From the NCBI GenBank assembly GCA_964036045.1, contig OZ038383.1:69027888-69091887 (forward strand): a stretch of DNA of 64,000 nucleotides, written 5' to 3'. Positions 7,291 to 61,011 of this stretch are shown here, in pieces. Below the pieces are notes generated by a model, which saw only the letters and a list, made by a program, of their open reading frames with translations, did not search any database and was not told the DNA's origin. Made by a program: the position numbers and the translations under genes. Each line of letters begins with the position of its first letter. Positions within the stretch are counted from its first letter, which is position 1. The stretch comes from Eutreptiella sp. 'Long Island Sound 2002'. Lineage: Eukaryota; Euglenozoa; Euglenophyceae; Eutreptiales; Eutreptiaceae.

Positions 7291-7460
7291 AGGGAAACCC
7301 ACAAGGGTGCCATCCCTGGAGCTAGCCAAATTTAGGTTGCCCCCTCATGTACCATGACTCTCTATACCATGACATGTGCATGGCCGGTGGGTTACCTTTC
7401 GTCGTGACACTTCGCTTGTCTTCGCTAGTGCCCACTTCCACTGATTTTCATTTCTTGTAG

Positions 7461-7648
7461 GCCCATCCAAGGAACCAATTGTCCAGGAGAAGAACCCCAG
7501 TTTGCAACTGTCATTGCGATGGGCAGCCCACCATTGGGCCACATTTGAAACGTGGCAAGACCAGCGGGCAGAGCGTTTTATCCCGGAGGAAACAACCTTC
7601 CAAAAATGGGTGGACACACAACGGGAAGAACTAGGGAACATTTTTTAA
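7461..7648 (+). CDS. Terminal coding exon of unknown protein
   Basis: A good 3' splice site (TTTTCATTTCTTGTAG) ends at 7,460. It opens a 61-codon frame, entered after two bases, that ends at TAA 7,646-7,648. The peptide is rich in Trp, Gln and Glu (for example HHWATFETWQDQRAERF and FQKWVDTQREELGNIF) and looks like an alpha-helical C-terminus rather than chance translation. It is probably the last exon of the gene that contains the NUMOD1-like segment 170 bp upstream; that link is inference from proximity and strand. Confidence 0.45.
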
Positions 7649-8135: not shown

Positions 8136-8530
8136 CACCAAAAATGCAAAAATAACGGGCCAACATAACGGAAAAAAACACCGACCCTCGGCAACTAGTG
8201 ACCCTCCCCCCCCTCCCCCCCAAACCTGTTTAAACCCCCCAAAATGAGTTTTTGGCAACTTTTTGTGCAACAATTAATTATAATTAATTAATAGTATGAA
8301 AAAACACAAAACAACAGCAAAAAAACAGCAAAACTGGAAAAATAACATGAAAGCCACATAATAACACCAAAGAAAACACCAAAAATGGAAAAATAGCGGG
8401 CCAAAAAAAGACAGAAAAAAACACCTACCCTCGGCAACTATTGACCCTTGCCCCCCCCCCCCCCCAAATCCCCTTAAACCCCCAGAACTGAGTTTTTTGG
8501 CACCTTTTTTGTGCAAAAATAACATAGAGA
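8126..8530 (+). repeat. Direct repeat, about 245 bp, two copies, A-rich with C tracts
   Basis: Two copies share 'AACGGGCCAA', 'CACCGACCCTCGGCAACTA' (second copy 'CACCTACCCTCGGCAACTA'), a poly-C run and 'CCAAAATGAGTTTTTGGCA'. An A/T-rich spacer with many AACACAAAA words lies between them. No gene is visible. Confidence 0.75.
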
Positions 8531-18884: not shown

Positions 18885-19075
18885 CGTCAAAAAACAAATT
18901 ACATGATTTCACATTTTTTTTGTTCACACGTTTACCGCAAAAAAAAAGTACATGATGTGATTTTGTTTTTGTATGGCTTACCGCAAAAAAAAAATTACAA
19001 CGGTGTGACCAACCTGCGTTTGCCGCAAAATAAGATTTTCATGACTTTACCGCAAAGAAAAAATTACCAATTTTA
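18885..19075 (+). repeat. Repeat family C, four clustered motifs
   Basis: TTTACCGCAAAAAAAAAGTACA, CTTACCGCAAAA..TTACAA, TTTGCCGCAAAATAAG and TTTACCGCAAAG..TTACC lie about 25-45 bases apart, separated by T-rich spacers. The cluster sits on the left of the 19.3-26 kb coding block, and a matching cluster in the same orientation is on its right at 27.15 kb. Confidence 0.8.
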
Positions 19076-19309: not shown

Positions 19310-20237
19310 ACATGGAGATCGATGAACCACGTGCGTGGACTCTGGCGGTTCTATATATCAAGAGACTGACCAAGTGCATGCGGAAGGTTGAATCTGGCAC
19401 AACACGAGACAATATGGCTTGGTGCCGTCGTCACATTTTTGTGCTTAATGCCGATGATAAGGAGGGGTGCAGTGATTTGTGTGTGCCTTCTATTGTTGTG
19501 TCCGGTTGGAGCTCTTCATTATTTGGGTTTGGGAACCCCTAAGCTCCATTGATTCGTCCTTTCTTGACGGCAATGATGAAGCTTTCACTAGCCACCAACT
19601 GACCAAGCACCGCGCCTTGGGATTCCAAAAGGACGATTGGTCTTGTAGTTTTCAAAGCTTGAACATCACGAAGGTCGCGGTGGAGCACCGAGATTCTTTT
19701 TCCGATGTGCCCCTCGTCCCAATTGGTCCCCGTGTTGTGGGCTATGTGCTCAGTATTGTTAATGCTGATCGCGCTGTGCGGGTCGTTCGAATTCCCGGTG
19801 ATGATGTGGAGGGTGTGAGCGAGCTTCTTTGCCCTCCCGAGCCGCCCCCCCCCCCCCAACCAAGCACCCAAGTTGAAGTTGCCGGCCCCACCCACTCGAA
19901 GGCAAGGAGGCCCCCGCCGAGCAAAGCGTGGAAAGCCTGGAGATCAGGACGCAACCTTCCATGGCCACTCCCACAAAGGAGGACACCTGTCCCAAGGTCC
20001 TCATCTGTGCAGTGTCGCGCAAGGTGCCGGATGGCTACCCGACAGATGCATCCAGCCAGATGGGGCGTTACCAGCTTTTCATCAATGACGTGGCCAAGCA
20101 ACTTGTAGCGGGGTTGCGCGCCGCTTGTCAGCGTAACCCGAATCCTGGTGCAAAACCCAAGTCTAGCGACACGAAGGCTCACTTGCTCTACAAGCATGCA
20201 TTCTTCCACTACCTTAGGCGGCCCTTTACGCACGTAG
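19310..20237 (+). CDS. Unrecognised protein, multi-frame coding segment upstream of the palindrome block
   Basis: Three consecutive frames look coding. 19,312-19,541 reads MEIDEPRAWTLAVLYIKRL and RRHIFVLNADDKEGC. 19,548-19,870 reads VPLVPIGPRVVGYVLSIVN then VVRIPGDDVEGVSELL, ending in a Pro run from a C tract. 19,877-20,237 reads TKEDTCPKVLICAVSRKVPDG, then YQLFINDVAKQLVAGLRAAC and KAHLLYKHAFFHYLRRP. They use different frames, so introns or a length error in the C run near 19,850 must intervene; I could not resolve the junctions. Leu/Val-rich, Lys/Arg-balanced composition argues for real protein. No domain recognised. It probably belongs with the following large ORF. Confidence 0.4.
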
Positions 20238-23200
20238 ACTTCGTTGCTAAAAGGCACGATTCATGGCGATTTCAACATCCGTTTTTTGCCCCCCAAAAAA
20301 GCATATCATTTTTTCGGCCAACCCCACGTGGATTTTCATCGTGGGATACAACAACCTCGCCTTTTGTTGCTTCCAGAGGTGTACGTATATACCCCCTATT
20401 TCGGGCTGAAAATTGTATCATTTAAAATTTTTGGGCACTGCAGTGCCCAAAAATTTGAAATGGCTTTTTTCAGTGGGTTCTCCAGTACACCTCTGTAGTC
20501 ATCTCCACAGGTGATGTCATACTGCAGCAGCATGCATCAAAACTTGGCATACCCGTTATCCATGGGTCATCGCACCGCGGTGTTATACTCGGAAGGCCAC
20601 GTACAATGTACCTTGCCCAATCACTTCCATTCCTGTCCAAATGTGCACTTGAAAATGGACTTCTAGTACTTTTGGGCACTGCAGTGTCCAAAAAATTTAA
20701 AACTCCGTATTTCACTCCTATTGGTTCCCATTGCGTAACACCTGACAAAGGACGTATGAATCATTGGACGTTGGTACTCATCCTCTGCTCATTGGAGATA
20801 TATTGCCGGTTGTCTGACTGCCACCTTGGAGTGTACGCAGGCTTTGGAACATTCCACGTCCATTGGGGGATACATTGTTTGGATCTTCGCTAGCTGCTTT
20901 TGGTCTATGCCGCATCAGGTTTGTTTTGTGATAGTGTCTCTGTTTTCTTTGTCCCCTTACCTTTGCTGCCTGCGAACAGGACTTTTGTCCATGGATGCGG
21001 CTCCCTTCCGGCAGTTCCTTAGTTCGAAGGTATATGCTTCAAAGGAGGATCTATCCGAGGCTGTGGGTGTGGATAAGGGTGCCGATGCGTTTTGTTCGTG
21101 GGTGTTAGATCTCCGGTTGGAGTGGAGAAGTAGGCGGTCTGTTGGTGAATACATCCAACAAAGGGACAGGCGGACCGTTAATTGTCTGCCGGACCAATGG
21201 TTCCGTGTTGCTGAGCAAGAGATTTTTAATATATGGTCTGTTCTACACAAGAGGTGTCGTCCACGTGCCAAGAGGGCTGTAGGTGTTCAACCCAAGAGTC
21301 GTGTGCAACGTAGGTGTTTGGCTCACATGGGTCAATGTTCTTACCATGTACCCTCCTTTGCAGTTCAAGGAGCAGCTGCGTGCACCAGTCTTTGGCAGAC
21401 CTTGGAAGGTAAACCCGCTGTTCTATGGTTTGATAATTTTTGTAGACATAACTTCCGGCCTGTGCCTGGTAATGAGAACCGGTCCCTTAATTGTACAGCT
21501 GGTGCTATCATACTCTTGAAACGACCTGTTGACGTTATGCCGTCTTTTCCTAGCCTCTCGGTCTTGCGGCAGAGGATTGGGTACACTGCAGACTTGTTGG
21601 TGCAGAGCCATAAAAACTTCATTGATGGCTTGCAAGGGTTGATGGACGACCCCATCCGCCTTCAACATGTTCGTTGTCCCTTGGACATACGACGGGCTAA
21701 TGTTACCAGCCCAGCTTGGACCCCCTTTTTTCTCACAGACCTAACTGTGTCCGCTACCCCCGACCTTGTCTCTATTATTCACGGGCTCCAGGAGGTGCAG
21801 CAGCACACACAGCACCGTCTTCCATTGTTGGTCAACGAAAATATTCACTACCGTGTCCTTAAGCTAGTTTACAGCATCAGCTATGCTCGGTACAACGTGC
21901 CCCTGTTCATTACACGTACCCCGGTAGTGTATGGCACATGGCACCCATATAAATATTGTGTAACCCTGTGCTACAGAAGATTCTTCCCTTTATTTACCTA
22001 TTTTTCCTATGGTTCACTCAATTTGGGCACTGCAGTGCCCAACTTTCCGAAACTCATCTATATGGAGCGTATGATTCTGGTTCTCTTGCACTTGGCCCAC
22101 AAGTGGCGCCAACCTTTGGAACAGAAGTTACAGACTCTAAGGGGTTTGCACCGACCGGGTAACGCTAATCACATCACACTTCTTACACAGGTGCAAGGGT
22201 TGGTAACACTGCTGTATGGTTACATTCCAGCCTTGTTTATTATTGGGTCGCAAGTGAGGGATTGTCATTGGTCTGCACAGGGAGAGCAGCACGCTGCAGG
22301 GCCATTGTTGAGCCGTTGCGTCCTTCTGAGGCTCACCCTAGGTTATGAGGACAAGGTTGAATATGTGTGCACCATTGTTGTTGCTAGGCTGTTGTGGTCC
22401 CAGTGGTTTGCCCGCTTACCTGGGGTGGCACACAGTGAGGAACCGTGTGAGGCCCTGTTAAGCCGTGTTGTGCACTTAATGGCACAACACCCTGGGAACT
22501 ATACGTTGCAACAGGTGCATGACCTGTTTATACTCACTCCCGTTGCAGACCAGACCCCAAAGGACCTGCAGTACGTTAATGTTCCCAAGGGACTGCCACA
22601 ACTGGTTGATTGTCGTTTCACCAGATTGATGGCGCGATTTGATGTTGGTGTTATACCCCCCCTGGTCTGGTCCAGTCAGAAGTCGAGTATCGTGCAAGAC
22701 AGGTGGGATCCTGCCAAGATGGATTTTCCTTGCGCACTAGATACGGTGCTCACTGCAGAGCATTACCGAGATCTATGTGCCAAGACATTGCAGACACTTG
22801 TTAAACCTGTTAAAGTTGATGCTGACGTGATGACAGAGCTGGGTAGACACGTGCCACAACGTCCTCCAGGTGATATGGACACAACAGTAGCACAGGCACA
22901 GGACATGTTACGCGCATGTAATACACCAGACCGGTACAAGCGACGCCGGCCAGCACGCGCTTTTGCGCAAAGGGACCCCGCCCGGATACCCGCCCCCCCC
23001 AATGCTGATGGCGACAGTGACAGTGATGAGGACCCCCCCCCCCCCGCTGGTGGGGCAGCCGGAGATCCAGACCTGAGGGCTGATGATTTTGTGGGTGATG
23101 ATGGATGGGACCCGGACCCCCCCCCTCCAGAAGCAGTGTCTGTTCACAGTGATGATTCCGACGCCCCCGTGGCTGTCCTTTCGGAGCTGAATGAGTTTGA

Positions 23201-23291
23201 CCCTCGATTTTTACCAGGTGCATCCGACTGTGATGCTATTTCTGCCATCTGTGTTCAATCGTCGAGCGCTGCCAGTAGTCATCAACATTAG
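20238..23291 (+). CDS. Large multi-exon protein of unknown family with acidic C-terminal tail
   Basis: The core is one open frame, about 20,984-23,291. Exons that extend it N-terminally are proposed at 20,238-20,378 (...GIQQPRLLLLPE) and from 20,477 (WVLQYTSVVISTGDVILQQHA; GIPVIHGSSHRGVILGRP). Further introns are likely at 20,833-20,893 and 20,920-20,982; both preserve frame. Visible landmarks are KPAVLWFDNFCRHNF followed by NENRSLNCTAGAIILLK, then VPLFITRTPVVYGTWHPYKY. The C-terminal tail (from about nt 23,000) is Asp/Ser/Pro-rich with C-tract-encoded Pro runs and looks disordered. 'W-x-DN' followed by 'xTA' and a later 'HPYK' faintly recalls transposase-like proteins such as DUF6589, but I would not assign it. 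A palindrome at 22,025 is either translated (LGTAVP) or the 3' end of a 78-bp in-frame intron. Some identities are ambiguous because in-frame introns are not visible as stops. Confidence 0.6.
20433..20448. repeat. Palindrome copy 1 (core of a 32-bp perfect palindrome)
   Basis: GGGCACTGCAGTGCCC, with perfect self-complementarity extending to 20,425-20,456 through flanking A/T. It lies inside a predicted intron (GAG/GTGTACG at 20,379 to TTTTTTCAG at 20,476). Confidence 0.95.
20674..20689. repeat. Palindrome copy 2, one mismatch
   Basis: GGGCACTGCAGTGTCC in a TTTT...AAAA context. If CTGCAG is used as acceptor, a donor GTACAATG about 80 bp upstream keeps the frame. Confidence 0.9.
22025..22040. 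repeat. Palindrome copy 3, perfect
   Basis: GGGCACTGCAGTGCCC within the open frame of the large protein. A donor at 21,955 (GTGTAACC) and acceptor at the central CTGCAG would remove 78 bp without a frame change, so its coding status is undecided. Confidence 0.95.
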
Positions 23292-23372
23292 AAGCCTGTA
23301 AATCAACAATTTGCAGCCCTGTGGCCTTTTGTAGTGCGTCGTGTGACCCTTTGTTAGCCCCTTTGCTAAGCT

Positions 23373-25071
23373 ATGCCTTCGGATACCGAACTGCCGGAAG
23401 GGGATGAGCAGCAGACCGCATCGCAAGCCGTTCACACAGCAGAGAAGACACGGGCGCAGTCGGGGCAGGCTCCAGTGAAGCGGACGGGGACAGACCGGGC
23501 AACGGAAACATTCCGGACAACGTGGATCAAAAAGGAGCTGGTCAAGATACAGCTGACCAAGATAAATTTTGACACCGACCTCACGCGTGGGCAGACCAAA
23601 GAGAGGGACGAGGACTCAGTATTATCGCGGATCGCAAGCCTGAGGACAAATCCACCCTGCCGGCCTATCTCAAACATTCTGATATGGCGAAACGAAGGTA
23701 CACTACCATCCTGTCACACGCCCGTCGTTATTTTCACACAGTCCGGTCGTTTGGGCACTGCAGTGCCCATCTCGCTGATATCTCCCATCTCCCATCTCCC
23801 TGTGGTGCATTTTTCTATCAGCTGAAATTCCCTACTGCTTGGGCGGGGCTCATATCCTGACGGCACTCCAAAGACTTCAACGAGAATACTGTGCGAACTC
23901 ACGGGCACTGCCGGACTTGTTACAACACGTCTACTGCGAGGAGATCAGACACGACTGTCCTGCTGACATCAGAGAGATTATTGGAGGCCATCACAATGCG
24001 GTACAACACTCAGTGAGCAAGCTGAGTATGGGACAAGTGGCCGCTCGAATTGGGACTGAAGTGCAGAAGGGCAAAGCGAAAGAGTTGCTGCTGGTGGCTC
24101 TTCGGAAATGTGGCCGGCTGGGTGAGAAAACACCTGTGGTATGAGAGATGCACGATGCGACCACCGTTGTCAGTCCTTTGCGTACCTGTGGCCTGTCCAA
24201 CACTGTATCCCTGCCAGGACTCAATCTGGAAAAATTGGAGACCGCCGGTTTCATTACTGCAGATATCTGGTGGCCGCGTGGCTGAGTTTATTGACACCTT
24301 TGAGAAGACTGCCGGTGAAGGTATTATGTCCTCTGAGCACCTGTTTTCGTCGTCTTTTGGTGATCATGGGAACTGCAGTGCCCAAATTCGATGCGACCCT
24401 AATTTTTGCACTGCAGTGCTCAACCCCTACACTCTGCGGCCGTTGACGGGACTGCATGGCGACCAGATGGATGAAATACCGTTGTACATGGCTGGAGATG
24501 GGGCCAAGATCGCAGGACTACATGCCAAGGCCAGACTGTTGAAGCGGGACCGCCTGTGGGAGATGCTGTACCTTCACCCGGACAACACACTCATCCATCC
24601 TTCTCGACGATGTTTATGGGGCGGCAGGGTCTGGCGCGATCGCTGTTGACCCCCCCCCCCCGGACCCACGACGTAAGGCTGTTTCGATCCCAGTGGTACC
24701 AGTGGTCTCCTGTTCTAACAGTGAACGTGCATGAAATGCAAAGAGTCCGCAAACTGCTTGCAAAGTCGCCGAGGGCCGCCAAATTGTCACTGGGGAAACG
24801 GACCTGGAGTGCCGAAAATCCCTTACCAAGCTGGGACACCATCCAGAAAGCACCGCTGTGGCAGGATGAGGAATGGGCTGACCTGAGGATTGCGCCGGCG
24901 AGGCCTGTCAAGGAAACTGCAGTGACAACGACTGATGGGGAGAAATTAACAACTATCTGGCTCAACAAGCCGCAGGATGGGACTGAAGCAACCGGAGCTC
25001 GGGCAGAGGCAATTGCGTTGGTTCCCGGCAAGGCTATCCCGTATACGATTGCATTGAGGGAGTACAAAGCG
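23373..25071 (+). CDS. Multi-exon protein of unknown function within the palindrome block
   Basis: It starts at ATG 23,373 (hydrophilic Gln/Thr/Lys-rich N-terminus) and runs to 23,697 in phase 1. Intron 23,698-23,821 (GTACACTA...TTTCTATCAG) joins it to EIPYCLGGAHILTALQRLQREY and QVAARIGTEVQKGKAKELL. A second intron (GTATGAGA...CCCTGCCAG, about 24,139-24,217) leads to RVAEFIDTFEKTAGE. A third (24,319-24,416) leads to LNPYTLRPLTGLHGDQMDE and GDGAKIAGLHAKARLLKRD. A frame change follows near a run of 12 C at 24,650, then VHEMQRVRKLLAKSPRAAKL and KLTTIWLNKPQDGTEATGA up to about 25,071. Each of the first three joins keeps the frame. No domain recognised. It may continue into the next ORF through an intron ending at 25,171. 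Confidence 0.5.
23753..23768. repeat. Palindrome copy 4, perfect
   Basis: GGGCACTGCAGTGCCC in the middle of the well-supported intron 23,698-23,821. Confidence 0.95.
24368..24383. repeat. Palindrome copy 5, one mismatch
   Basis: GGGAACTGCAGTGCCC inside the predicted intron 24,319-24,416. Confidence 0.9.
24408..24419. repeat. Palindrome copy 6, 12-bp core
   Basis: GCACTGCAGTGC. The CTGCAG centre is itself the best 3' splice site for the intron from 24,319, because using it restores the frame into LNPYTLRPLTGLHGD. Confidence 0.85.
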
Positions 25072-25126
25072 GTATGCAACCATTAGGCATAAGAATGGGA
25101 TCGATTTCGCATTGTTGGTCACTTTA

Positions 25127-25141
25127 GGCACTGCAGTGCCC
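25127..25141. repeat. Palindrome copy 7, 14-bp perfect core
   Basis: GGCACTGCAGTGCC followed by C (15 bp annotated). It lies between the stop at 25,086 and the ATG at 25,200, or in an intron GTACAAAG...GACAACAG that would join the two frames. Confidence 0.9.
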
Positions 25142-25148
25142 ATCTGTA

Positions 25149-26045
25149 ATGAAATGTGCTTTTGACAACAGGTTTTCATTGAGTGTACGAAGAAACAAAA
25201 TGGACGACATCCATCCGCTGGTGCTGAAGGTTGCTGCGAAGTTGGTACCTGTGGCTATTGGTGGAATGGCGGCCGACGTTAAGTTCCTGGTTAATCAATC
25301 GCGCGACTCTGAGGAGTGGGGAGGCTGGCAGTATATTATGACCTCTTTTTTTGATCAGGCAGTCGGTCACCCGACCTATCGGTTCGAGGAGAGGACTATT
25401 TGCTTCTGTGTGCCTGACAAGTTTAGGGTGAAGGTCCCGAATATTTTCATTTGCGCTCAGGGTGCATACGGCAGCACCATTGGTCTGGCAGCGGCTGGTT
25501 GGCTCCTGCGTGTGCTTGGTATTGTTCCCCGACGGGACAGAGAGTCTGAGGATGAAGTGTGGCTCCTGCTTCTGACAGCATCGGCTGTATTGCCAGCACA
25601 GCTCCTGTCCTGCCTTCCTGAGTCCCCCTGTCTAGCAGCTTGCTTCACTGGGCGCCAGGGTTTGTTTAACGAGTTCTGTGAACAGCTAGCGGCGTATGTG
25701 CAGGAGATGGACTGTGTCTACGTGGTTAACTGGGACGCTTGGATGCCAAGGATTAGGGACTGTATGCCAGTTGTGGTGCAGCGGCCTGGGGAAGGGGAAG
25801 ATGAGGAGGGGGGGGACGATGTGGAGGAAGAGGAGGATGACGAGATCGTGCTGGTCGGAAGTGGTGACAGCAAGAAGAGGAGCACCCCCAGCAAGAAGAA
25901 GCGGTCCTCCGACGACAGTGGGGATGAGGTTGATGATCCCCCCAAAAGGCCAGCCAAAAAGGCCAAGGACAGTACCCCCCTCAATATGTTTCACGCCAAA
26001 GTAGGTCAGGCCAAGGGTAAGAAGGCTCCCCCAAAGAAGAAGTAG
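25149..26045 (+). CDS. Unknown protein with acidic stretch and Lys-rich nuclear-type tail
   Basis: An open frame whose first well-placed ATG is at 25,200 (MDDIHPLVLKVAAKLVPVAIG). The N-terminal two-thirds looks globular and partly hydrophobic (IFICAQGAYGSTIGLAAAGWLL; LLLLTASAVLPAQLLSCLP). From about nt 25,790 it turns into a Glu/Asp run, then EIVLVGSGDSKKR, and ends in KKKRSSDD, RPAKKAKD and KGKKAPPKKK, which resemble nuclear localisation signals. Stop at 26,043-26,045. The layout of folded part, acidic patch, then basic tail is typical of chromatin-associated or DNA-binding eukaryotic proteins, but I know no family match. Palindrome copies 7 and 8 flank the ORF. Confidence 0.6.
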   Translation: MKCAFDNRFSLSVRRNKMDDIHPLVLKVAAKLVPVAIGGMAADVKFLVNQSRDSEEWGGWQYIMTSFFDQAVGHPTYRFEERTICFCVPDKFRVKVPNIFICAQGAYGSTIGLAAAGWLLRVLGIVPRRDRESEDEVWLLLLTASAVLPAQLLSCLPESPCLAACFTGRQGLFNEFCEQLAAYVQEMDCVYVVNWDAWMPRIRDCMPVVVQRPGEGEDEEGGDDVEEEEDDEIVLVGSGDSKKRSTPSKKKRSSDDSGDEVDDPPKRPAKKAKDSTPLNMFHAKVGQAKGKKAPPKKK

Positions 26046-26173
26046 ACTGCGTTGTGCGGTTGGCACTGCCTGTGTCCATGTCAGTAGTTTTTTCGCCTCG
26101 ATTTGCACACTGTCGCGCGTCCTGTTCTATGCACGTGTGAGACTGGTGCCCTTTTTCATGTTTTGGTAATTTT

Positions 26174-26189
26174 GGGCGCTGCAGTGCCC
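26174..26189. repeat. Palindrome copy 8, one mismatch
   Basis: GGGCGCTGCAGTGCCC, 130 bp past the stop of the Lys-rich-tail protein, in non-coding sequence. Confidence 0.9.
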
Positions 26190-26503
26190 AAATTCAGCGA
26201 CTCGCCATTTTTTTACCCCTGCTGCGCCACTTCTTTTGCAGGCATTGTTGCCGTCATTTATTATTGCATTGGCTGCACTGGCGGCGCCTCCGTTGTTTGT
26301 CGGCACCACTGGTGGTGCATTATTTGTCATGCTTCGCATACAATCACAGTGACTGGGTCAGCAGACGCGGTAACAAAAAGCAAACCACAGTTTTGCATGT
26401 GTTTGCCTGTCGTCCTCCTTGCTTCATTTTTCAGGGTTCATTTTATGGTATGGTTTGAAATGCAGCAGCGGATTATTTAGAAGAATTGGATTTTTCTTTG
26501 GAT

Positions 26504-26519
26504 GGACACTGCAGTGCCC
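26504..26519. repeat. Palindrome copy 9, one mismatch
   Basis: GGACACTGCAGTGCCC, the last copy of the cluster, in non-coding sequence. Confidence 0.9.
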
Positions 26520-26529
26520 AAATTTGAAG

Positions 26530-27110
26530 GGGATACATGAGTTTTGACTGGCTCATGTTGTACCCCCTACACACAGTCATTTTGGATAATTCACAGGTTT
26601 TTGGGGGTGTTCCCTGCAAAGCACAATTGTGCAATTTTTCAAAGTGGTTTTTCAGCCCCCGTTTTGGGGGGGGTACCCATTTGGGAACTGTGGCAATTTT
26701 GCTACGTGCGTATAGGGCCGCCTAAGACTACTTTTAGCGGGTGCATGTTTTGTGGGCTGTATTTTCCTCCACCCATTTGGTGTACCAATGGTGGAGCGTA
26801 TAAGAATGTTATTATGTTGGCCCCATACCAGTGCCTTGGTGGCCTACAATGGCGGCACTAGCGTTGGCCATGGTCTTTTTAGGACTCCTTTTCTTGAGCG
26901 TGATTTTCTTCTCAGTGCTGGTACATGGGATGTTCGCCATGGCCCTGTTAGGTTTTTTTTCTTGGGGCTGATTTTGTGTCAAGTGCCAATGACACCATGT
27001 GAAACTATGTTACATCGGCCGAGTCTTAACTAATCGGTGGCCACACAGAGTACTAGGTGCACTGTGGCCGCGGCGTCCCATCGTTGAGGTCGCTATGGGG
27101 TGCGTACGGA
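26530..27110 (+). other. No firm gene; two competing small ORFs
   Basis: A 40-residue ORF at 26,849-26,971 reads MAALALAMVFLGLLFLSVIFF and continues hydrophobic to the end, like a single membrane helix. An overlapping frame reads ALVAYNGGTSVGHGLFRTPF then LLSAGTWDVRHGPVRF and also looks protein-like. Only one can be real, and I cannot choose. Confidence 0.3.
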
Positions 27111-27149: not shown

Positions 27150-27260
27150 GCATTTCTTTCATATTTTCAATTTTTTTTTATAATTTACACAACATACCGC
27201 AAGAAAAAATTACACACATTTACCACAAAAAAATAACACCACTAGACGAATTTTTGTACA
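27150..27260 (+). repeat. Repeat family C, right-hand cluster
   Basis: TTTACACAACATACCGCAAGAA...TTACACACATTTACCACAAAAAAAT repeats the 18.9-kb cluster in the same orientation and ends in TTTTTGTACACG, as does the 3.98-kb copy. Confidence 0.75.
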
Positions 27261-27364: not shown

Positions 27365-27628
27365 GCGACCCCCCCCCCCCCTCCCCACCCTCCCGGCCCA
27401 CTTAGTTACCAATGGTCAATAGCTATTGGCCATACATATGGTGCCGCCGAAGGTGCGCTACAGTTTTTTTCATTCCCCTTGCACACGTAGCACCCCTCCC
27501 TGTCCCGGTGGAGCACCCCAACACTATACTTCAACCCAACCTTGACTCTAACGCCCACCCCAACCCTCAGCCTGCTCCTAACCCTACACCTAACCCTACC
27601 CCTGACCCTAACCCTAATCAAGACTGAA
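27365..27628. repeat. C-rich tract and degenerate CCCTAA-like repeat
   Basis: A C run at 27,370-27,381 precedes a Thr/Pro-type stretch. About 27,540-27,628 is a degraded array of CCCTAA/CCCTGA/CCCCAA words, an interstitial telomere-like tract. Confidence 0.65.
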
Positions 27629-32796: not shown

Positions 32797-34287
32797 GTGC
32801 GGGATTCGGTACCGGCAAATTGGTGGGACCTACCCCGGGATGAACCAATTTTTCAGGACGTCCATGGGGGACAACATATGCAGGAGCCTGATACTCAGTA
32901 TCGGACCATAGCCTTCAACTGTTTGGGTGACCAACAGGAAGGCGTGAATCGTACCGACTGGAAGCGCCGTCCCAGGTATAATCTGGACTCTGAGGGAGGG
33001 TTCGACGAGGTTATTGGGACCCCGACGTCCCACAAAGGGCAAAATGTTCATTCTCCTCGGCAAAGTTCTAACCTGTTTGGGAAAAGGCTGAAGGGTACGG
33101 ACCGCAAACGGTGGAGGCTCAAGTGCCACAAGTTGGCACTCCTCGGACAGGGCCCTGCGGATACGCCAGACCCTGAGTTGTCCGAGGAGAGTCGCCCCCT
33201 AATGCCCGAACCCTTGGTCCAGCTCCAAGTTGAGGAGATGAATGCCCGCTATAAAATCAGTGAGTTGCAGCTAGCCGAGACCAAGGCCCTGGACCAGTTT
33301 CAGGAGGCCTTAGCGAAAATAACCCAGGTCTGCTCCACTTATGATCAGAGTGTGGTTCCCGACAAGGGTACACCCACAGGACTAGACATCAAGGCGAAAA
33401 CTGACCCAACTGGTTGGATGGTTCGCTCCTTCGCCGAGGTGACCAAGCATGGACCGTCGCTTGATAAGCACGAACGGTGATGCGAAAAGGTTTCTCAGTG
33501 GCGCACCAAGGTGGATCCCATACTCAGAGAGCCCAAACCGCTCATGGGATCCGACTTGGCGCCCCCTACCGCTTTGTTTCAGGACAGAGAACGTATTGTT
33601 AGGTCAGTGATTGAAGCTGATGGTGAGCTCCTTGGTGAGTTGGCCATCGAGCTTCGCAAGCGCATCTATGAGGACTTCGCAGATTCGGTATTCGACCCTA
33701 CGGGGAACGAATACGCGAAAATCGAGGCCAATGCCTTGAAGCGAGGTCCAAAGGACATGAGTTTCTGCAAATTGGAGTTGAAGCCTGGCTCTCAACCCCG
33801 AGCATGCAACCCCATACGGGCTGTGGGAATCAAGGAAGAGGAGATGAACAAAAAAATCAAAGGATTCCTTGATAAAGGATGGATAGTCCGATCCCACAGT
33901 GCCCGGGTTCGCGAGAGGGTTCCTGGTTCCAAAACGAGGAACCAACAAATGGAGATTGGTCATCGATTACCGGTACCTGAACTGGTGTCTTGAGGGACAT
34001 GAGTTCCCACTACCCGTGATCGAAGACCTTCTCCAAGGGCAGGCCGGAAACCATCTCTGGACCCTTGTGGATCTGGAAGATGGCTTCCACCAGGTGCCCC
34101 TTTTGGAGGAGTGCAGGCATTTAACCGCCTTTTGCACCCCCGCAGGGACATTTGAGTGGAGGGCCCTGCCCATGGGGGTTAAGGTTGGGCCACAGGCTTT
34201 TCATCGCCTTGTGAGCTGGTGTGTTGGCCGCCTTAAACCCCATATCAGAGCCTATATAGATGACATTCTAGTAGGCACGCGACCCAC
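32797..34287 (+). mobile_element. pol: Decayed Ty3/gypsy retrotransposon, reverse-transcriptase region
   Basis: The first frame (to 33,480) is hydrophilic with a helical Glu/Gln stretch and then a TGA. It continues in the same frame from 33,481, with SFCKLELKPGS..PRACNPIR, EEEMNKKIKGFLDKGWIVRS. A one-base frame change near 33,900 leads into FLVPKRGTNKWRLVIDYRYL, LVDLEDGFHQVPL, HLTAFCTPAGTFEWRALPMG and AYIDDILVG. These are standard blocks of Ty3/gypsy reverse transcriptase. The catalytic pair is YIDD (34,253-34,264). Homology stops right after it: the thumb, RNase H and integrase are absent, and Gln/Asn/Asp repeats follow. No long terminal repeat or protease seen. With one stop, one frameshift and a truncation, it cannot be autonomous. 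Confidence 0.85.
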
Positions 34288-34292
34288 TTGCA

Positions 34293-35680
34293 GTGGCAAA
34301 GAAAAACTTCTCGATTCAGCACAAACACAACAAGCAGGGGTACGGCAGCAGCAGCCACAAGCAAAGCAAGTACCCACGGGCAAACCTGCGCCGCAGCAGC
34401 AGAAGCCAGCCCAACAAGTTACGCATCATGCGGCGGGAGGAGCACAAGCAGACGATGGACAACACGTTCAAGGTGCAGACGACAACGGCCACGGTGGCAA
34501 CAACAACGGCAATGGCAACGGCAATGGCAACGATGACAACGGCAATGGCGAGGGCGTCAGGGATGGGGATGATGATGATGGGGACTTTGGGGACCGGCGA
34601 CCACAAGATCGGCACGGACGGGCCTCGTGGAAGACGACGGACAACGGAGCGTATTGGGGCCCAGTGAAGGAGCTATGCGAGTCCAATCCAATTGTTGTCG
34701 AATTCCTTGACCACCCTTGAGAAAGGCTGGCTGACCAGGTTTGGTGAGTGGATAGAAGAAAGGGAAGACGATGACTAGACGAGGAAACCTCCGTGAGAAA
34801 TGTGGCAGGTCATTGTCCGGACCAAAAAGCCCTCGAGGGCATGGAAGGACAAGGTCAATCCGTGGATTGAGGATGCAGTGCAGTGCAGAGAAGAGGCCTT
34901 GGACGAACGGGACGAAGCGATGGAGAACTTCCGCAAAGCAGAGAAAGCTATCCGGGACGAGTTCAAAAAGCGAAAGGGTCCGGCTGGGAAGCAAGAGGAG
35001 CAGCTCCGCCAAAAAAGCTAGGCGGCCCTCCACTAGGCGCAAGAGAAACGGATTTCGCAAATGCCGTAAGGTATTTGGTCCCGGTGCTAGGTAGGCTCCG
35101 CCGGATGCTGCTAAAGCTCAAGGCCGTGGAGGAGACGATTCCGCCGACGGCACGCATGGCATCCACCGGAGTATTGGGGGACCTATGCTTGCACTGTTTT
35201 GCGGTCGACGTTACGGAAGACGAGGAAGAGGAACAGGGGAAGCCGAAGCAAAAGAAAATGGGCACCAAACACAATGACACAGTGGGAAAGAAGATGGATA
35301 TGGCCAAAAAGAAAGGAAAGAAAGGAAAGAAGATGGGGAAAGTGAAGGAGGAGAAGCAAAAGCAGGACAAGCAAGATAAGGAGCAGCGCAACGGATCTGG
35401 TCCAAAGGCCTGACGCATGAGGGTGAGGATCGTGGACGTGGAGGGCACGCGAGCCTGCAAGACCCTCCACGACAATGTTGTAAAGCGGGGTGCCGACGTT
35501 AACCTTTTGAGAGGGAAGCGCGTGGTCAAGGGGAGGGATCACTGTGTTTACATGGCCCTGAAGACGGCGTTTTGGTTCGCTGGTGTCGGCCCGGCAAGTT
35601 GGGAGGATATGCCTCCCGTCAGGCATTTTTTGTGCGCTGCCCCTAAAGCGAGTAATATGGTTGAAGGCAAGCTACAGTGA
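34293..35680 (+). CDS. Lys/Glu-rich coiled-coil and low-complexity ORFs downstream of the RT fragment
   Basis: Four successive frames are open. 34,293-34,720 is Gln/Asn/Gly/Asp low complexity. 34,800-35,021 (MWQVIVRTKKPSRAWKDKV...) is a charged helical stretch (EEALDERDEAMENFRKAEK). 34,990-35,413 reads NAVRYLVPVLGRLRRMLLKLK then a Lys/Glu/Gly/Met tail. 35,417-35,680 reads MRVRIVDVEGTRACKTLHDN, then RDHCVYMALKTAFWFAGVGP and stops. They may be a gag-like part of a neighbouring element or a decayed host gene; there is no CCHC knuckle to support gag. A change of frame roughly every 300 bp suggests introns or decay. Confidence 0.35.
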
Positions 35681-36289: not shown

Positions 36290-37295
36290 TACCAAAATGG
36301 TGGGACACGTGAAGATACACACAAAAAGCCTACTGCGGATGATTCCACACATCCAGACAAATGACGCAACCCCACTGCTGATGGTTGCACATGTGAAGAG
36401 ACAGGAAAAACGCCTACTGCGGATGGTGGCACACATGAAGAGGCAGCGGAGAAGCCTACTGCTGATGGTGGCACACCTCAATAGATAGGCCAAAAGCCTA
36501 CTGCAGATGGTGGCACACATGAAGAGACGTCCCAAAACCCTACTGCGGACGGTGGCACACATAAATAGATAGATAAAAGGCTAATGCGGATGGTGGCACA
36601 CATGAAGACACTTGGAAAAACCCAAGTGCGGATGGTGGCACACATGTGCAGATAGGAAAGAAGTCTACTGCGATTTGTGGCACACATGAAGAGACACGAA
36701 AAACACCTCGTGCAGATGGTTGCACGCATCAAAAGACAAGAGGGAAGTCTGCTGCGAATGGTGGCACACATGAAGAGACAGGAGAGAAGCCTACTGTGGA
36801 TGGTGGCACACATGAATAGATAGGATAAAAGCCTACTACGGATGGTGGCACACATGAAAAGACGTGAAAACCCCCTATTGCGGAAGGGTGCACACATGAA
36901 TAGATGGGAAAACAGCTTACTGCAGATGTTGGCACACATGAAAACACGTGAAAAAACCCAGCTGCGGATGCTGGTGCGCATGTACAGATAGGAAAGAGGC
37001 CTATTGCAATTGGTGGCACAGGTGAAGAGACAGCAGAAAAACCTACCGGGGATGATGGCACACATGAAAAGAAAGGAGGGAAGCGTACTACGGATGGTGG
37101 CACACATCTAGAGACAGGAGAGAAGCCTACTGCGGATGGTGGTAGGCATGAAGTGACGTGAAAGAACCCCATTGAGGTCGGTGGCATACATGAATAGATA
37201 GGGAAAAAGCCTGCTGCGGATGGTGGGACACATGTGCACATAGGCAAGGAGCCTTATGCAATTAGTGGCACACATGAAGAGACAAGAAAAAAGCA
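36290..37295 (+). repeat. 42-bp minisatellite, left part
   Basis: About 24 units of roughly 42 bp built on 'CTACTGCGGATGGTGGCACA' and 'CATGAAGAGACAGGA'. The spacing between GGTGGCACACA words is 42 (for example 36,760 and 36,802). Because 42 is a multiple of three, minus-strand frames stay open (36,478-37,107) and give a 14-residue repeat of the type CATIRSRLLSYLFM. I read these as repeat translations, though a repeat protein cannot be fully excluded. Confidence 0.9.
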
Positions 37296-37860
37296 CGGGG
37301 GGCGCTCCTAGTCGGGACCAGACCCCAAAGGGGGGGGGGGGCTCCACGGACCCCAAAATTGCTTTTTGGAACAATGTCCTTTGTGAGCGCCGGAGTTTTC
37401 GTTTTAGGCATAGGGCAGGGGGAAATTTTTTTGTTCGATCCTATTTGTTTGTACTCAAAATACTCAGAATTTCGTGGAGAATTCAAAAATGGCTAAAAAG
37501 CACAAAAAAGGAGTTTGACCCTAACCCGGCCTCTGGGTCGGACCTTGGTTGATGGGAGCCTGTTTGAGCATTGGCTAGGGCGGTCGTTATGGGGTTATGT
37601 AACCACCCTGCCCAATTAGGGGCCACCTGTGATTCTGCCCCCGCTGTGAAGCGGTGGGGATCCCCCAGGCGGCAGGGGTTATGTAGCCACCTTGCCCACT
37701 TGTGGGCCATTTCTGATTCGGTCCCCTGCTATGCTAGGTTTCGGTCAACGAAGGCGAGGGGTGGGGTCCCCCCCCCTATTGGAGGGGTTGCCCCCCCCCC
37801 CCCCCCGCTACAGCCCCCAAAATTGTAAAACACGCCGGGGTCACACATTGGCCGGCGGCG
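37296..37860. mobile_element. Insertion splitting the 42-bp minisatellite
   Basis: The array breaks at AAAAAAGCACGGGGGGCGC and resumes at GGAAAAAAGCCTATTGCAGATG. The 565-bp interruption has G runs near its left end and C runs near its right end. It holds a family F segment (37,585-37,760) and a T-rich core. C/G runs at both ends are what several other short elements in this window have. No coding region. Confidence 0.55.
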
Positions 37861-37861
37861 G

Positions 37862-38465
37862 CCCCCCGTGGAAAAAAGCCTATTGCAGATGCTGGCACAC
37901 ATCAATAGATAGTGCAAAACCCTGCTGCGGATGGTGGCAGGCATGAAGAGCGCCAAAAAACTTTATGGAGGATGGTGGCACACATGAACAGATAGGAAAA
38001 GAGCGTATTGCGGATGGTGGCACACGTGAAGAGATCAGACACAAGCCTACCGCAGTTGGTGGCGCACGTGCAGAGATAGGAAAGAAGCCGACTGCGCGCT
38101 GGCACATATGAAGAGATAGGATAAAAGCCTACTACGGATGGTGGCAAACATGAATAGATAGGGAAAAAGCCTATTGCGGATGGTGGCACACAGGAAGGAT
38201 AGGAGATACAGCTACTGCACATGGTGGCACACATGAATAGAGCGGAAAAACTCCTATTGCGCATGGTGGCACACATGAATAGATAGGATAAAAGCCTACT
38301 GCGGGTGGTTGGTCGCATGAACAGATAGGAAAAAACCCTACTGCGGATGATGGCACACATAAGGGGATAGAAGAGAAGCCGACTGCGAATGGTGGCACAC
38401 GTGAAGAGACAGGAAAATGAAGCCTATGCGCATGGTGGCACACATGAAGAGACACGGAGGGTCCT
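37862..38465 (+). repeat. 42-bp minisatellite, right part
   Basis: About 14 further units of the same repeat, ending at GAAGAGACACGGAGGGTCC. The minus-strand frame 37,902-38,360 is open through it. Units are as diverged here as on the left, so the split came after amplification. Confidence 0.9.
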
Positions 38466-45627: not shown

Positions 45628-47502
45628 TCAAACTGTGTCCGGCGTATAGGGCATTGTACATAAGAGTTGGTCGGCGCTTCTGATCCACACAAAGGACAAT
45701 TTTATCCATTGATCTGCATTGAATTCCTGGTAGGTACATCCAAATGTAAGTCGGAAAGGGTGAGCGGAAGTCATGATGATTGCCTTTCCTTTCTTGTTGC
45801 GAACACCAATGTAGCGATGAACATCAATCCTGTGGTTCATGGGCATCAGTGGAATAAGAACATGGTCATCATGTCTTCCTTCCATACCAGCTGCGGTCGT
45901 ATTGTTGCGTGGCACTAGAACGGTTGCCCGAAATCTTGGATGCTCAAGAAAGACAATTTGACCCGGTGTTGCATCACGAATCACGAATCATTGCCACGAT
46001 AGGAGGGCTAGTTTGGGCTGAAGAGAATGGATTGCAAACGAGCTTGAGTACCATTCGAAAGCCCCATTTCGGGACGCAAATTTGCTGTCAATGAGCAAGG
46101 CGCCCCTTCGGCAAAAAAAAAGCCGTCATATCCTTGTCGGTACCAGACAAGAACTCCGCCGGCTCTCCAAAGCCACGTACATACTGTTTTGCCATTGGTA
46201 AGCACCAAGCCACCACTGGGACGCCTATGCGCTTTGCGCATTGTTGCACGATAACTTGGTTGACAACATGCACCGTTTGTTGATTGGTATTGACAATGGC
46301 CGCACCAACCCAACCCTGGTACTTGTTCGCGAAGTGCTGAGGAGTTATCTCCTTCAACCTAGCAAAAACTTCTTGCAGATACCCATGCTATCCTTCGTCC
46401 ATTGGCGAAAGGCGATGTTTACTTGAGCATGTTCGGGATCCGTTGCACGATGCTGCTTTGTCAAACACACTTCGTGAAACAAACCGAAAAGCTCAAGCCC
46501 TTTTTCTTGGTGTGCAAGGTTTTGTCCTTCTGGCTGACACTTGATACTCGCATGTAGAGGAATATTGGCCACAAGTTCAAGTTGAATGAAATGGCCCAAG
46601 AGCAAGCTACACAACGCTCGAAATGGTACATCATAACGTTGGCATATTTCGCGAAGATGTGCATCAATTTCTCTCAACATCCCACAACCTACCATTGAAA
46701 CCTCGTCCACCACAAGCACCTTGCATCCGGCAAAAGAACGACGTAAGCGGTCAAACGTTGCTCGTTTGTTTTCCACATCGGCATCCACTTCATCGGTGTC
46801 ATACACCTTCAAACCCATGCCATGGTGGCAAGTGGAACCATTGTTAAGATTTTTTACAGCAATGGCACATGGAGCCACGTACTTCACGACATTGTTTCCG
46901 TATTGTCCGCACAGCCACTTTAGGATTGCACATGCCATCCAACTTTTACCGGGTCCTCCACGAGTCTGCACAAGAAGCAAGGGAGCAGTTGGGTTGCATG
47001 ACACGTCCGAGCGGGCATCCAAATGTACATACTCAATGATGGTCCGTAGGATCGCCTCTTGGGATTGGTCACCTTTGTCAATTGTAGTGCTTGATGGAGT
47101 AGACATGGAAGGATCCCCAAGAAACTCATCTTCAGGTTTGATCCCATCAGCAATGTGTTGTGCATGTGCATAAATGTCATCACCGCCCGCGTATTGCTTA
47201 TCGTCTTCAAGGTCATGCACAAAACTACCATGACATGGTGCTGCATGGTTGCCTACATGATGGTCTAAAAGAAACCCTTGCAGAGCGGCGCAAATGCCAT
47301 CAAACTCCTTTGCCGTATCTTCTTGTTGGTCTTCTGCTTGTGCACGATTGATGTCATCTTGAAGCTCCTCAACTGCTTCCAAAAGCAAATGATGCCTGTC
47401 ATCCACACCAAGACCGCAGCAGCTTTGAATGCCTATCCCAAACATGAAAAGGGTTGGAAAGGACCGATAAAGCAAGCGATCATTGGCTGTGAACTCATTC
47501 AC
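45628..47502 (-). pseudogene. PIF1-family helicase of a Helitron-like element, frameshifted
   Basis: The minus-strand frame starts MNEFTANDRLLYRSFPTLFM, a block that in Helitron proteins precedes the Rep part. It then jumps to a linker and the helicase: QTRGGPGKSWMACAILKWL (P-loop), KVLVVDEVSMVG (Walker B) and EVCLTKQHRATDPE. A frameshift near 46,385 continues as EITPQHFANKYQGWVGAAIV. Another at an A run near 46,115 continues as LTANLRPEMGLSNGTQ. The last frame (45,984-45,628) has HPFRLTFGCTYQEFNADQ, the C-terminal motor motif. The P-loop is two residues shorter than GxxxxGKS. No HUH nuclease (Rep) is present between the N-terminal block and the helicase. At least two frameshifts make it a pseudogene unless the A-run lengths are wrong. 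Confidence 0.8.
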
Positions 47503-47519
47503 GGCGCGTGCCTCCCTAC

Positions 47520-48410
47520 CTACAGTAGTATTTCACCTATCAGCCAATAGCTCCTTGATGGACTGCAAAACTTGTATACGCTCATCTCCATCGCGCCCCA
47601 CCAAGCTTCAATCCGACAACATCACGGCATCCAAAATAGCTGGCGGTTGCTTCATCGCGATCCCATCTTTGTTTGACGCATAGTTTTCAATGACAGCAAT
47701 CCTTTTTTGTGCTATGGGTGGGTAGAAATACGTCAAATGCTGGTTGCACCAACGTTGATGATCTGATGTGCCTTTTTGGATTCAGGTAAGAAGAGGATGC
47801 TTATGGGGCAGTGTGTTTGTTACTTTGTATACAATAGGTTCGTGATGGCACATATTTGCTCGATAGTACAATTCTATGGAGGGTGCCATGGTGGTCGTTG
47901 CGTGTTTTGCCTGGGTTGCATTGATTGTCTTCCACCATTGCGTTGCACGCCCGTTGTTCTACACGAGATTTTGTTATTGCATTGACAATTGGCTTCCGCT
48001 TCACCGCGGTCCCATTGGTATTTGGCCTATGATTTGCAATGCCAATGTGCTGCTCTTGCACTTACGTGGTCTTATGTGACTTTTACTAGTTGTACAAGTT
48101 GTCTTTCTTTGGCCACTAGATGTTATGGGTGGCCAAGGTAGTGCCAAAGTCTGTATTTATGGAGGGAGCTATCCTGTTTGCACTCCATCATGTGGTTGTG
48201 GCGCACGTTGATGGCGGAGAAGAGATTCCCACAAACGTCACTGGCGTTGCCTTGTGCCAAAAAAAATGATAGAATGGGTGCAAAGTGATGGCTCTTTGTT
48301 GTTCTGTGATTGTCGACGCTGCCATGTGCAAAAACGCGTTCTTCATCATGTTTGGCTTGCCCGGTGGTGATGTAGACGGAGAACAAGGAGGAAAGCATTA
48401 ACGCCACACC
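47520..48410. other. No supported gene; one inverted family G copy
   Basis: Family G appears in reverse orientation at about 47,985-48,040 (GGCTTCCGCTTCACCGCGGT, CCCATTGG), and a partial copy is near 47,655. Otherwise unique sequence. A minus-strand frame at 48,407-48,123 has no domain. Confidence 0.5.
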
Positions 48411-60611: not shown

Positions 60612-61010
60612 CCCCCACACAGCGGCGGATACACCCGAGTCCCTCCGGTCCTGCCTGGGCCGGGGAGGGATAGGGACGCCCCGTGGGGGTTATGAGGGGA
60701 CACCACACCACCCACCCCCACACAGCGGCGGATACACCCGAGTCCCTCCGGTCCTGCCTGGGCCGGGGAGGGATAGGGACGCCCCGTGGGGGTTATGAGG
60801 GGTCATCACACCACCCACCCCCACACAGCGGCGGATACACCCGAGTCCCTCCGGTCCTGCCTGGGCCGGGGAGGGATAGGGACGCCCCGTGGGGGTTTTG
60901 GAGGGGACACCACACCACCCACCCCCACACAGCGGCGGATACACCCGAGTCCCTCCGGTCCTGCCTGGGCCGGGGAGGGATAGGGGCGCCCCGTGGGGGT
61001 TTAGGGGGGA
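60612..61010 (+). repeat. 103-bp tandem repeat, four units
   Basis: Near-identical units beginning CCCACACAGCGGCGGATACA at about 60,615, 60,718, 60,821 and 60,925. Differences are a few bases. Frames open through it translate a 34-residue repeat (GGYTRVPPVLPGPGR...). Confidence 0.95.
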
Positions 61011-61011
61011 C

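Follow-up and report, generated by a model that had tools for sequence, protein, structure and literature searches.

The DNA analysed here (the window) is a 64-kb stretch of contig OZ038383.1 from the euglenophyte Eutreptiella sp. 'Long Island Sound 2002', and our subject is a three-gene DNA transposon within it, which we call family 1, together with the nine short palindromes that it carries. The element is 6,514 bp long, is bounded by terminal inverted repeats (TIRs) of 25 bp (CTTAGGCGGCCCTWTACGCACGTAG), as are cut-and-paste transposons, and is flanked by a 5-bp duplication of its target site. Its features, in window coordinates, are as follows.

20208..20212, target site duplication ACTAC, left, directly outside the left end
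20213..26726, + strand, DNA transposon of family 1, 6,514 bp, with terminal inverted repeats, a 5-bp duplication and the same ends in other copies
20213..20237, + strand, left terminal inverted repeat CTTAGGCGGCCCTTTACGCACGTAG, from a repeat search
20433..20448, site 1, GGGCACTGCAGTGCCC, 5' noncoding, 220 bp from the left end, found by match and matrix
20674..20689, site 2, one mismatch, 5' noncoding, with a diverged counterpart retained in a non-autonomous derivative
20991..23291, + strand, candidate transposase gene, with motifs WFDNFxR, GTWHPYKYC and SEEPCEALL
22025..22040, site 3, exact, within the transposase coding sequence, reading GTAVP
23373..25086, + strand, middle gene, its frames disrupted in the window's copy and/or intron-containing, with relatives in families 2 and 3
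23753..23768, site 4, exact match within the disrupted region of the middle gene, perhaps in an intron
24360..24416, + strand, probable intron GTGATC...CTAAT...CTGCAG, from direct reading and a family-2 protein that lacks the insert
24368..24383, site 5, one mismatch, in the probable 57-nt intron, as judged from alignment of the following residues
24406..24421, site 6, three mismatches, spanning the end of the probable intron
25126..25141, site 7, with one mismatch, in the gap between the middle and third genes
25149..26045, + strand, third gene, 298 aa, with an acidic stretch and a lysine-rich tail
26174..26189, site 8, in 3' noncoding DNA, with one mismatch
26504..26519, site 9, also in 3' noncoding DNA, with one mismatch, 207 bp short of the right end
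26702..26726, - strand, right terminal inverted repeat, 24/25 identical to the left
26727..26731, target site duplication ACTAC, right, directly outside the right end

All nine palindromes lie within the transposon, and the cluster stops at the transposon borders. With up to three mismatches allowed, GGGCACTGCAGTGCCC has nine matches in the window, all within 20433-26519, and none elsewhere; 0.70 matches would be expected, and nine were reached in 0 of 100 shuffles. An earlier reading of the window made from its letters alone (the sequence-only reading) had described nine palindromes confined to one block and had considered a chance cluster implausible, and both statements are reproduced here, as is its description of copy 1, which on direct reading is a perfect 32-bp palindrome (95% of pairs are matched over 44 bp). 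A weight matrix, built from the same nine sites that it scores, gives these sites 31-39 bits, with no other place in the window above 9.6, and the family-1 palindromes are therefore a discrete class. Six of the nine are imperfect; since the same forms are in the majority among the copies that cover them (16 loci compared), these imperfections are not decay private to the window's copy. The sites are found upstream of, between, inside and downstream of the genes, at 207-220 bp from both ends and then at 461 and 537 bp, with spacings between sites of up to 1.7 kb. Three near-matches to CGCTGCAGTG at 61-64 kb were set aside as a single repeated stretch in tandem-repeat DNA.

The host genome (2.28 Gb, 2,205 contigs) contains the exact family-1 16-mer at 866 places and the reversed control at none, and triplets of the 16-mer at spacings of 1592 and about 1736 recur genome-wide, as in the window. 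For this search and for that with the family-2 palindrome described below, the places listed are the first ones, on contig C1. Twenty regions were picked non-randomly from those listed for the 16-mer, an exact search that favours copies in which sites 1, 3 and 4 are intact, and the element was present in 20/20, whether whole, deleted, rearranged or as a fragment. In these regions the 16-mers belong to one element family, and the even scatter through the genome that the sequence-only reading had named as speaking against it is not seen. Among 17 two-ended copies (the window's included), the 5-bp duplication is exact in 14, has one mismatch in two and is missing in one, and duplications of 6 or 8 bp are found in none, as is typical of a fixed-length duplication. 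By its ends and duplications, the block is a DNA transposon of the TIR order. Two of the fetched regions, L023 and L024, represent one insertion in a duplicated region. Repeats resembling TTTACCGCAAAAAAAA flank the window's transposon on both sides (18888-19062 and 27190-27235), and may belong to an older repeat that was split by the insertion.

The candidate transposase belongs to a protein cluster of 288 sequences (97% identical) and the third-gene product to one of 169 sequences (94% identity), with distant transposase relatives at 28-47% identity. Candidates for the D, D and E residues of an RNase-H-fold DDE/D transposase are conserved (WxDNF, LVD, SEExxEALL), with no Pfam or PDB match and a structural model of low confidence (predicted local distance difference test, pLDDT, 47). 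In Pfam, seven open reading frames (ORFs) of the element gave two weak matches, both below the cut-offs (E 0.086 and 0.15), and 10 transposase relatives gave a single match at E up to 1, an unrelated one; PDB profile searches returned no relative. A tblastn search in phages gave no result; in viral contigs, the protein search gave 93 pattern matches, none confirmed, and the DNA search gave three contigs with one place each, which we take as chance.

Sites in coding sequence and in a probable intron, and a possible role in RNA

The sequence-only reading had placed most copies in introns or between reading frames, and this holds in part. For sites 5 and 6, location in a 57-nt intron is probable, since the family-2 protein runs through this region without extra residues, whereas copy 3, at 22025, is protein-coding. 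It reads LGTAVPNFPKL, and palindrome-free relatives are equally long at this point (APGKELPSFPKL in P0009 and RSGDTVPCLPKL in P0010); site 3 arose by substitution within an existing loop, and is neither an insertion nor an intron. A site related to site 8 is readable from the protein of the 51%-identical relative P0032 (codons not seen).

In some algae, introner elements occur as short repeats associated with introns, and introner-like hairpins were one of three candidates put forward by the sequence-only reading. A tiny mobile palindrome, introner-like or PstI-palindrome-like, that inserted repeatedly into the block would leave short, repeated and near-identical palindromes such as those seen here; however, copy 3 adds no residues relative to P0009 and P0010, the palindromes occupy fixed places in the element copies (the spacings of 1592 and about 1736), and none of the 20 regions is without the element. 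Nor is there an intron-sized insertion unit, as in introners; the repeated unit is the 6.5-kb transposon itself. Membership of the introners is thus not supported, given the coding copy 3, with its unchanged length, and the size of the repeated unit, and repeated insertion of a mobile palindrome is scarcely credible.

The second candidate, hairpin 3'-end signals as in some large DNA viruses, fares little better. Perfect inverted repeats, and the position of copies 5 and 6 in a probable intron, are what 3'-end or splicing signals in the element's transcripts might look like, yet the pairing test found no compensatory change, every one of 500 shuffles paired as well or better, no loop is present, and the sites are spread over 5', 3' and intergenic positions, with one in coding sequence. 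The figure for pairing cells, 81.5% versus 13-44% when slid, is as for any palindrome. We therefore consider the 3'-end signals unsupported, and RNA hairpins of either kind very unlikely. The perfect dyad with its fixed centre, the tolerance of single half-site changes and the lack of compensatory change point to a homodimeric DNA-binding protein, and the occurrence of one specificity per family, set out below, suggests that such a protein would be encoded by the element.

Related families and a non-autonomous derivative

Beside one family-1 copy, palindromes were first seen in which the middle A..T is switched to T..A, and these belong to a second family. The family-2 palindrome, TGGGCTCTGCAGAGCCCA, occurs at 1,837 exact places genome-wide (control 0). 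We read family 2 as one two-ended copy and parts of others. The two-ended element is 10,960 bp long (C1:46506121-46517080, regions L036 and L037), its ends CTTAGGAGGCCCATAGTGCCCCCTA (CTTAGGAGG...) match at 25/25 positions with CTTTT on both sides, and its gene order (transposase, middle, third) is that of family 1. Its transposase, in a frame with a stop, aligns with P0001 across 610 residues at 30% identity (E 4e-76), its middle gene matches that of family 1 at 34.8% (E 1.7e-7), and the match of its third gene is weak (E 4e-4). At a threshold of at least 14 of 18 positions, 24 family-2 sites are present in a 15.5-kb stretch and 24/24 are inside the element; positions 6 and 13 are T/A in 22 of these 24 sites versus A/T in eight of the nine family-1 sites. 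The transposase block, which makes up 19% of the element, contains none of the 24 (p 0.006), a weak site (3823) lies within the third-gene frame, and spacings reach 2.3 kb. Another family-2 copy, beside L021, is 76.9% identical to L036 over 3,974 columns and matches the middle gene at E 2.5e-6, whereas the best E among 200 shuffled queries was 6.5e-4. Nine of the 23 spacings between family-2 sites are 69 or 70 bp (C1:46505000-46520500), and several of the pairs recur about 240-255 bp apart. In 32 of 36 comparisons, the similarity between spacers of paired sites stays at or below the 95th percentile of shuffles; most pairs have kept both sites and their distance, but not the spacer sequence.

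Retention of sites is also seen in a 3.4-kb non-autonomous derivative of family 1, present in four of the 20 fetched regions (L008, L016, L018 and L022). Its left 239 bp (80-90%) and right 620-640 bp (91-93%) are those of the element; the interior differs, and consists of an inverted repeat, imperfect at 80% identity and about 2.5 kb in extent, with microsatellite-like stretches, and has palindromes at about 460, 1039, 2034 and 2607. In the L022 copy, site 2 retains 16/18 positions and site 1 is identical; the latter is weakly informative, given that the left-end 239 bp are themselves 88% identical. Because the 199 bp between these two sites are 60% identical between derivative and element (score 22, shuffle maximum -27), the sites have been kept where the neighbouring DNA has drifted and the element's genes are gone. 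These observations bear on the alternative that the palindromes are sites of recombination or gene conversion, which conversion instead of selection keeps alike. Similar flanks are longer at some copies (44-52 bp) and the left homology of the derivative stops at site 1, as such exchange would predict, but pairs with diverged spacers retain both dyads and the symmetric switch between families leaves the dyad intact, and we regard conversion as highly improbable.

A third family with a dyad of its own was predicted on the assumption that the sites belong to an element-encoded reader, and this prediction was tested last. The P0004 family is 29% identical to the window's transposase and has at least 67 matched genome stretches, 60 of them at 67-100% identity; from a single copy we read the two flanks, 2.6 and 3.0 kb long, which stop short of the ends. 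In these 5.6 kb beside the gene there are 16 copies of ATCGAAATTTCGAT (up to two mismatches), and no family-1 or family-2 palindrome at 14 or more of 18 positions was found in the flanks. Elsewhere, ATCGAAATTTCGAT is absent both from the window and from a further 245,760 fetched bases, in which overlaps count double, and 200 shuffles of the family-3 stretches gave at most one per stretch. P0007 is a P0004-type transposase fused to downstream sequence, and since its tail is similar to the middle-gene products of family 2 (43.5% over 46 residues, E 1.4e-8) and family 1 (38.9% over 36 residues, E 2.2e-4), the middle gene is, judged by protein similarity, common to all three families. In the copies read, the palindromes are family-specific: each is enriched in its own family and a different one is found in related families, as with motifs of the VANC type. 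In region L013, the stretch 7352-7573 contains GCCGAAATTTCGGC (within TGGCCGAAATTTCGGCCA) three times without mismatch, with a distance of 70 bp between two of these copies, and a weaker copy follows at 8218; because this array resembles the family-3 palindrome and the family-2 spacing, it perhaps represents the sites of a fourth family.

A dimeric host factor, such as an insulator, silencer or origin protein whose sites were picked up by the elements, would give dyads equally well. Three families in one genome with three palindromes, two of which differ by one symmetric change, and the presence of the element in 20/20 fetched regions argue against a host protein, which we consider unlikely.

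Proposed role of the palindromes and relation to known systems

We propose, with a probability of roughly 0.55, that the palindromes are the operator array of a three-gene DNA transposon, bound by a protein of the element and most likely acting in anti-silencing or activation. The proposal starts from observed features, namely the transposon borders, the site counts, the family specificity in the copies read and the conservation across subfamilies. From these we infer that a protein binds, which protein it may be and what its binding may achieve. An element-encoded dimeric protein would bind each 18-bp dyad and so mark the whole element as 'self'. The middle gene, being present in all three families, would provide the best candidate for this reader, followed by the third gene or the N-terminus of the transposase. 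As each family has its own dyad, the protein of each would be expected to act within that family and on the non-autonomous derivatives of that family. The most likely purpose would be to open the chromatin of the element, or to keep it active, over its length, in the way that VANC proteins act on VANDAL elements, and we rank this first because the sites are not confined to the ends; the main alternative purpose would be help in pairing the ends. The third candidate of the sequence-only reading, that the palindromes are bound by a protein which the block encodes, thus fits best, because the block is a transposon, its relatives have family-specific palindromes and the dyad shows no compensatory change; the binding itself remains putative.

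The same sites, with an element protein bound, could instead serve transposition, in that a TnpA-like accessory protein would coat and pair the ends and the interior copies would be extra loading sites. The sites close to the ends (207-220 bp from either one, with further sites at 461 and 537 bp) suit this role, as do the end-proximal and interior sites retained in derivatives without the element's genes, and the logic resembles that of CACTA elements, in which motifs and DNA-binding proteins diverge (PMC2613891, in excerpt). Unlike subterminal motifs, however, the sites span the whole element in both families, with spacings as wide as 1.7 kb in family 1 and 2.3 kb in family 2, and we see a role in transposition as possible but rather doubtful.

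Several points weigh against an anti-silencing operator array. No result separates anti-silencing from transposition, and no DNA-binding domain was recognised in the element proteins tested (Pfam and PDB profiles); the AlphaFold models are too poor to help (transposase pLDDT 47, third gene pLDDT 34). Repeated palindromes occur in host satellites too, so a cluster alone proves nothing. In the derivative, sites 2034 and 2607 mirror 1039 and 460 through the inverted repeat, and about 44 bp around site 1039 resemble the element's site 2; the sharing of sites thus arises partly by duplication. Among young copies, the sites differ at 0.022 per base versus 0.027 for the rest of the element, a conservation that is not significant (25% of random draws are as low).

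How a transposon distinguishes its own copies in a large genome is a long-standing question, of which VANC in Arabidopsis is one worked example. According to the excerpted text of PMC5735166 and PMC10398659, the VANC targets of VANDAL elements lie in introns and in intergenic and terminal noncoding parts, and the repeats differ between related elements. The present elements resemble that system, as far as it is described there, in having short element-borne motifs that are enriched in the family, rare elsewhere and distributed along the element, that lie mainly in noncoding DNA (family 2, 0/24 in the transposase block; family 1, 1/9 in confirmed coding sequence), that differ in related families and that form repeats. 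Unlike the VANC motif YAGTATTAY, as given in those excerpts, the dyad is long (at least 18 bp), palindromic and without orientation, and one site is coding. No sequence link to VANC or to the VANDAL transposase turned up, and no Pfam family, that of a MULE transposase included, passed its cut-off in the scan of the tested ORFs, which included no direct comparison with VANC. In CACTA elements, according to excerpts of PMC2613891, TnpA binds repeated subterminal motifs that act in excision. What is shared with En/Spm, Tam1 and Tgmt, on the same partial text, is a transposase with a separate DNA-binding function (putative here), sites near both ends, and a repeated motif for an element protein, with motif and protein diverging together (binding again being putative here). 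The CTTAGG ends and the 5-bp rather than 3-bp duplications exclude CACTA/EnSpm, and the interior sites and palindromic motif differ as well. We suggest that, as far as its site arrays go, the element may operate as VANC or TnpA systems do, and claim identity with neither.

The excerpts of PMC12730594 describe hAT5, KDZ (Kyakuja-Dileera-Zisupton) and Plavaka as eukaryotic DNA transposons, several with accessory genes, as here, and hAT5 also shares the 5-bp duplications with our element; membership of hAT5 is conceivable, although the transposase has no Pfam match that would support it. On the values given there, KDZ/Zisupton is excluded by its 8-bp duplications, and Plavaka by its ends (TGT..ACA or CATCA..TGATG) and its duplications of 2-3 bp. 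The giant KDZ elements of Ectocarpus, in the part of PMC12477816 available, offer no closer match. Family-specific palindromes of this sort were not found in searches of an open-access library, subscription papers and repeat databases being outside the search. Element-encoded recognition of repeated motifs is known; the palindromic, family-specific form would be a new variant and the superfamily is possibly new.

Because the transposase has no Pfam or PDB match, the superfamily may be undescribed. We give about even odds to an unnamed superfamily whose families would each bear a long palindromic 'self tag' of their own, at roughly 9-24 places along the element, and encode a protein that reads it; the tag would be rewritten when families split, and non-autonomous derivatives would obey it. 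Its proposed traits are the CTTAGG ends and 5-bp duplications in two families and the middle gene in three, and rewriting of the tag would amount to one symmetric base-pair change (families 1 and 2) or be complete (family 3). If this is true, the families would form a natural series of co-evolved protein-operator pairs. With three related families in one genome and genes beside the palindromes, protein-operator co-evolution becomes directly testable, and the non-autonomous derivatives reveal which sites are kept once the genes are gone.

Satellites and other features of the window

Regions L023, L024, L029 and L030 (C1:109.19-109.24 Mb) contain a satellite of approximately 72-bp units with TTGCAAGGTCTAGACCTTGCAA dyads, and a transposon copy splits this satellite. 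Palindromes centred on CTAG around L023/L024 were considered as a site family and rejected, as they are this 72-bp satellite, into which a copy inserted. An array with a spacing of about 41 bp adjoins the satellite, and the transposon insertion is present twice, in inverted orientation. Two further repeated palindromes are probably satellites, GGGGGTGTAGACCCCC in L022 (560-1109, spacing 72 in part) and AAATTCGTACGAAATT in L027 (9131-9325, spacing 11 in part).

Elsewhere in the window, a PIF1-like helicase ORF (46354-47532, - strand, Pfam E 4e-13) is possibly derived from a Helitron, and a reverse transcriptase ORF (33899-34717, + strand, RVT_1, E 5e-19) belongs to a retroelement. Long tandem arrays occupy 36297-38452 and 60612-63999, with units of 42 bp and 22/110/256 bp among others, and short telomere-like CCTAAC repeats are found at 27577-27617, in a chromosome-internal position.

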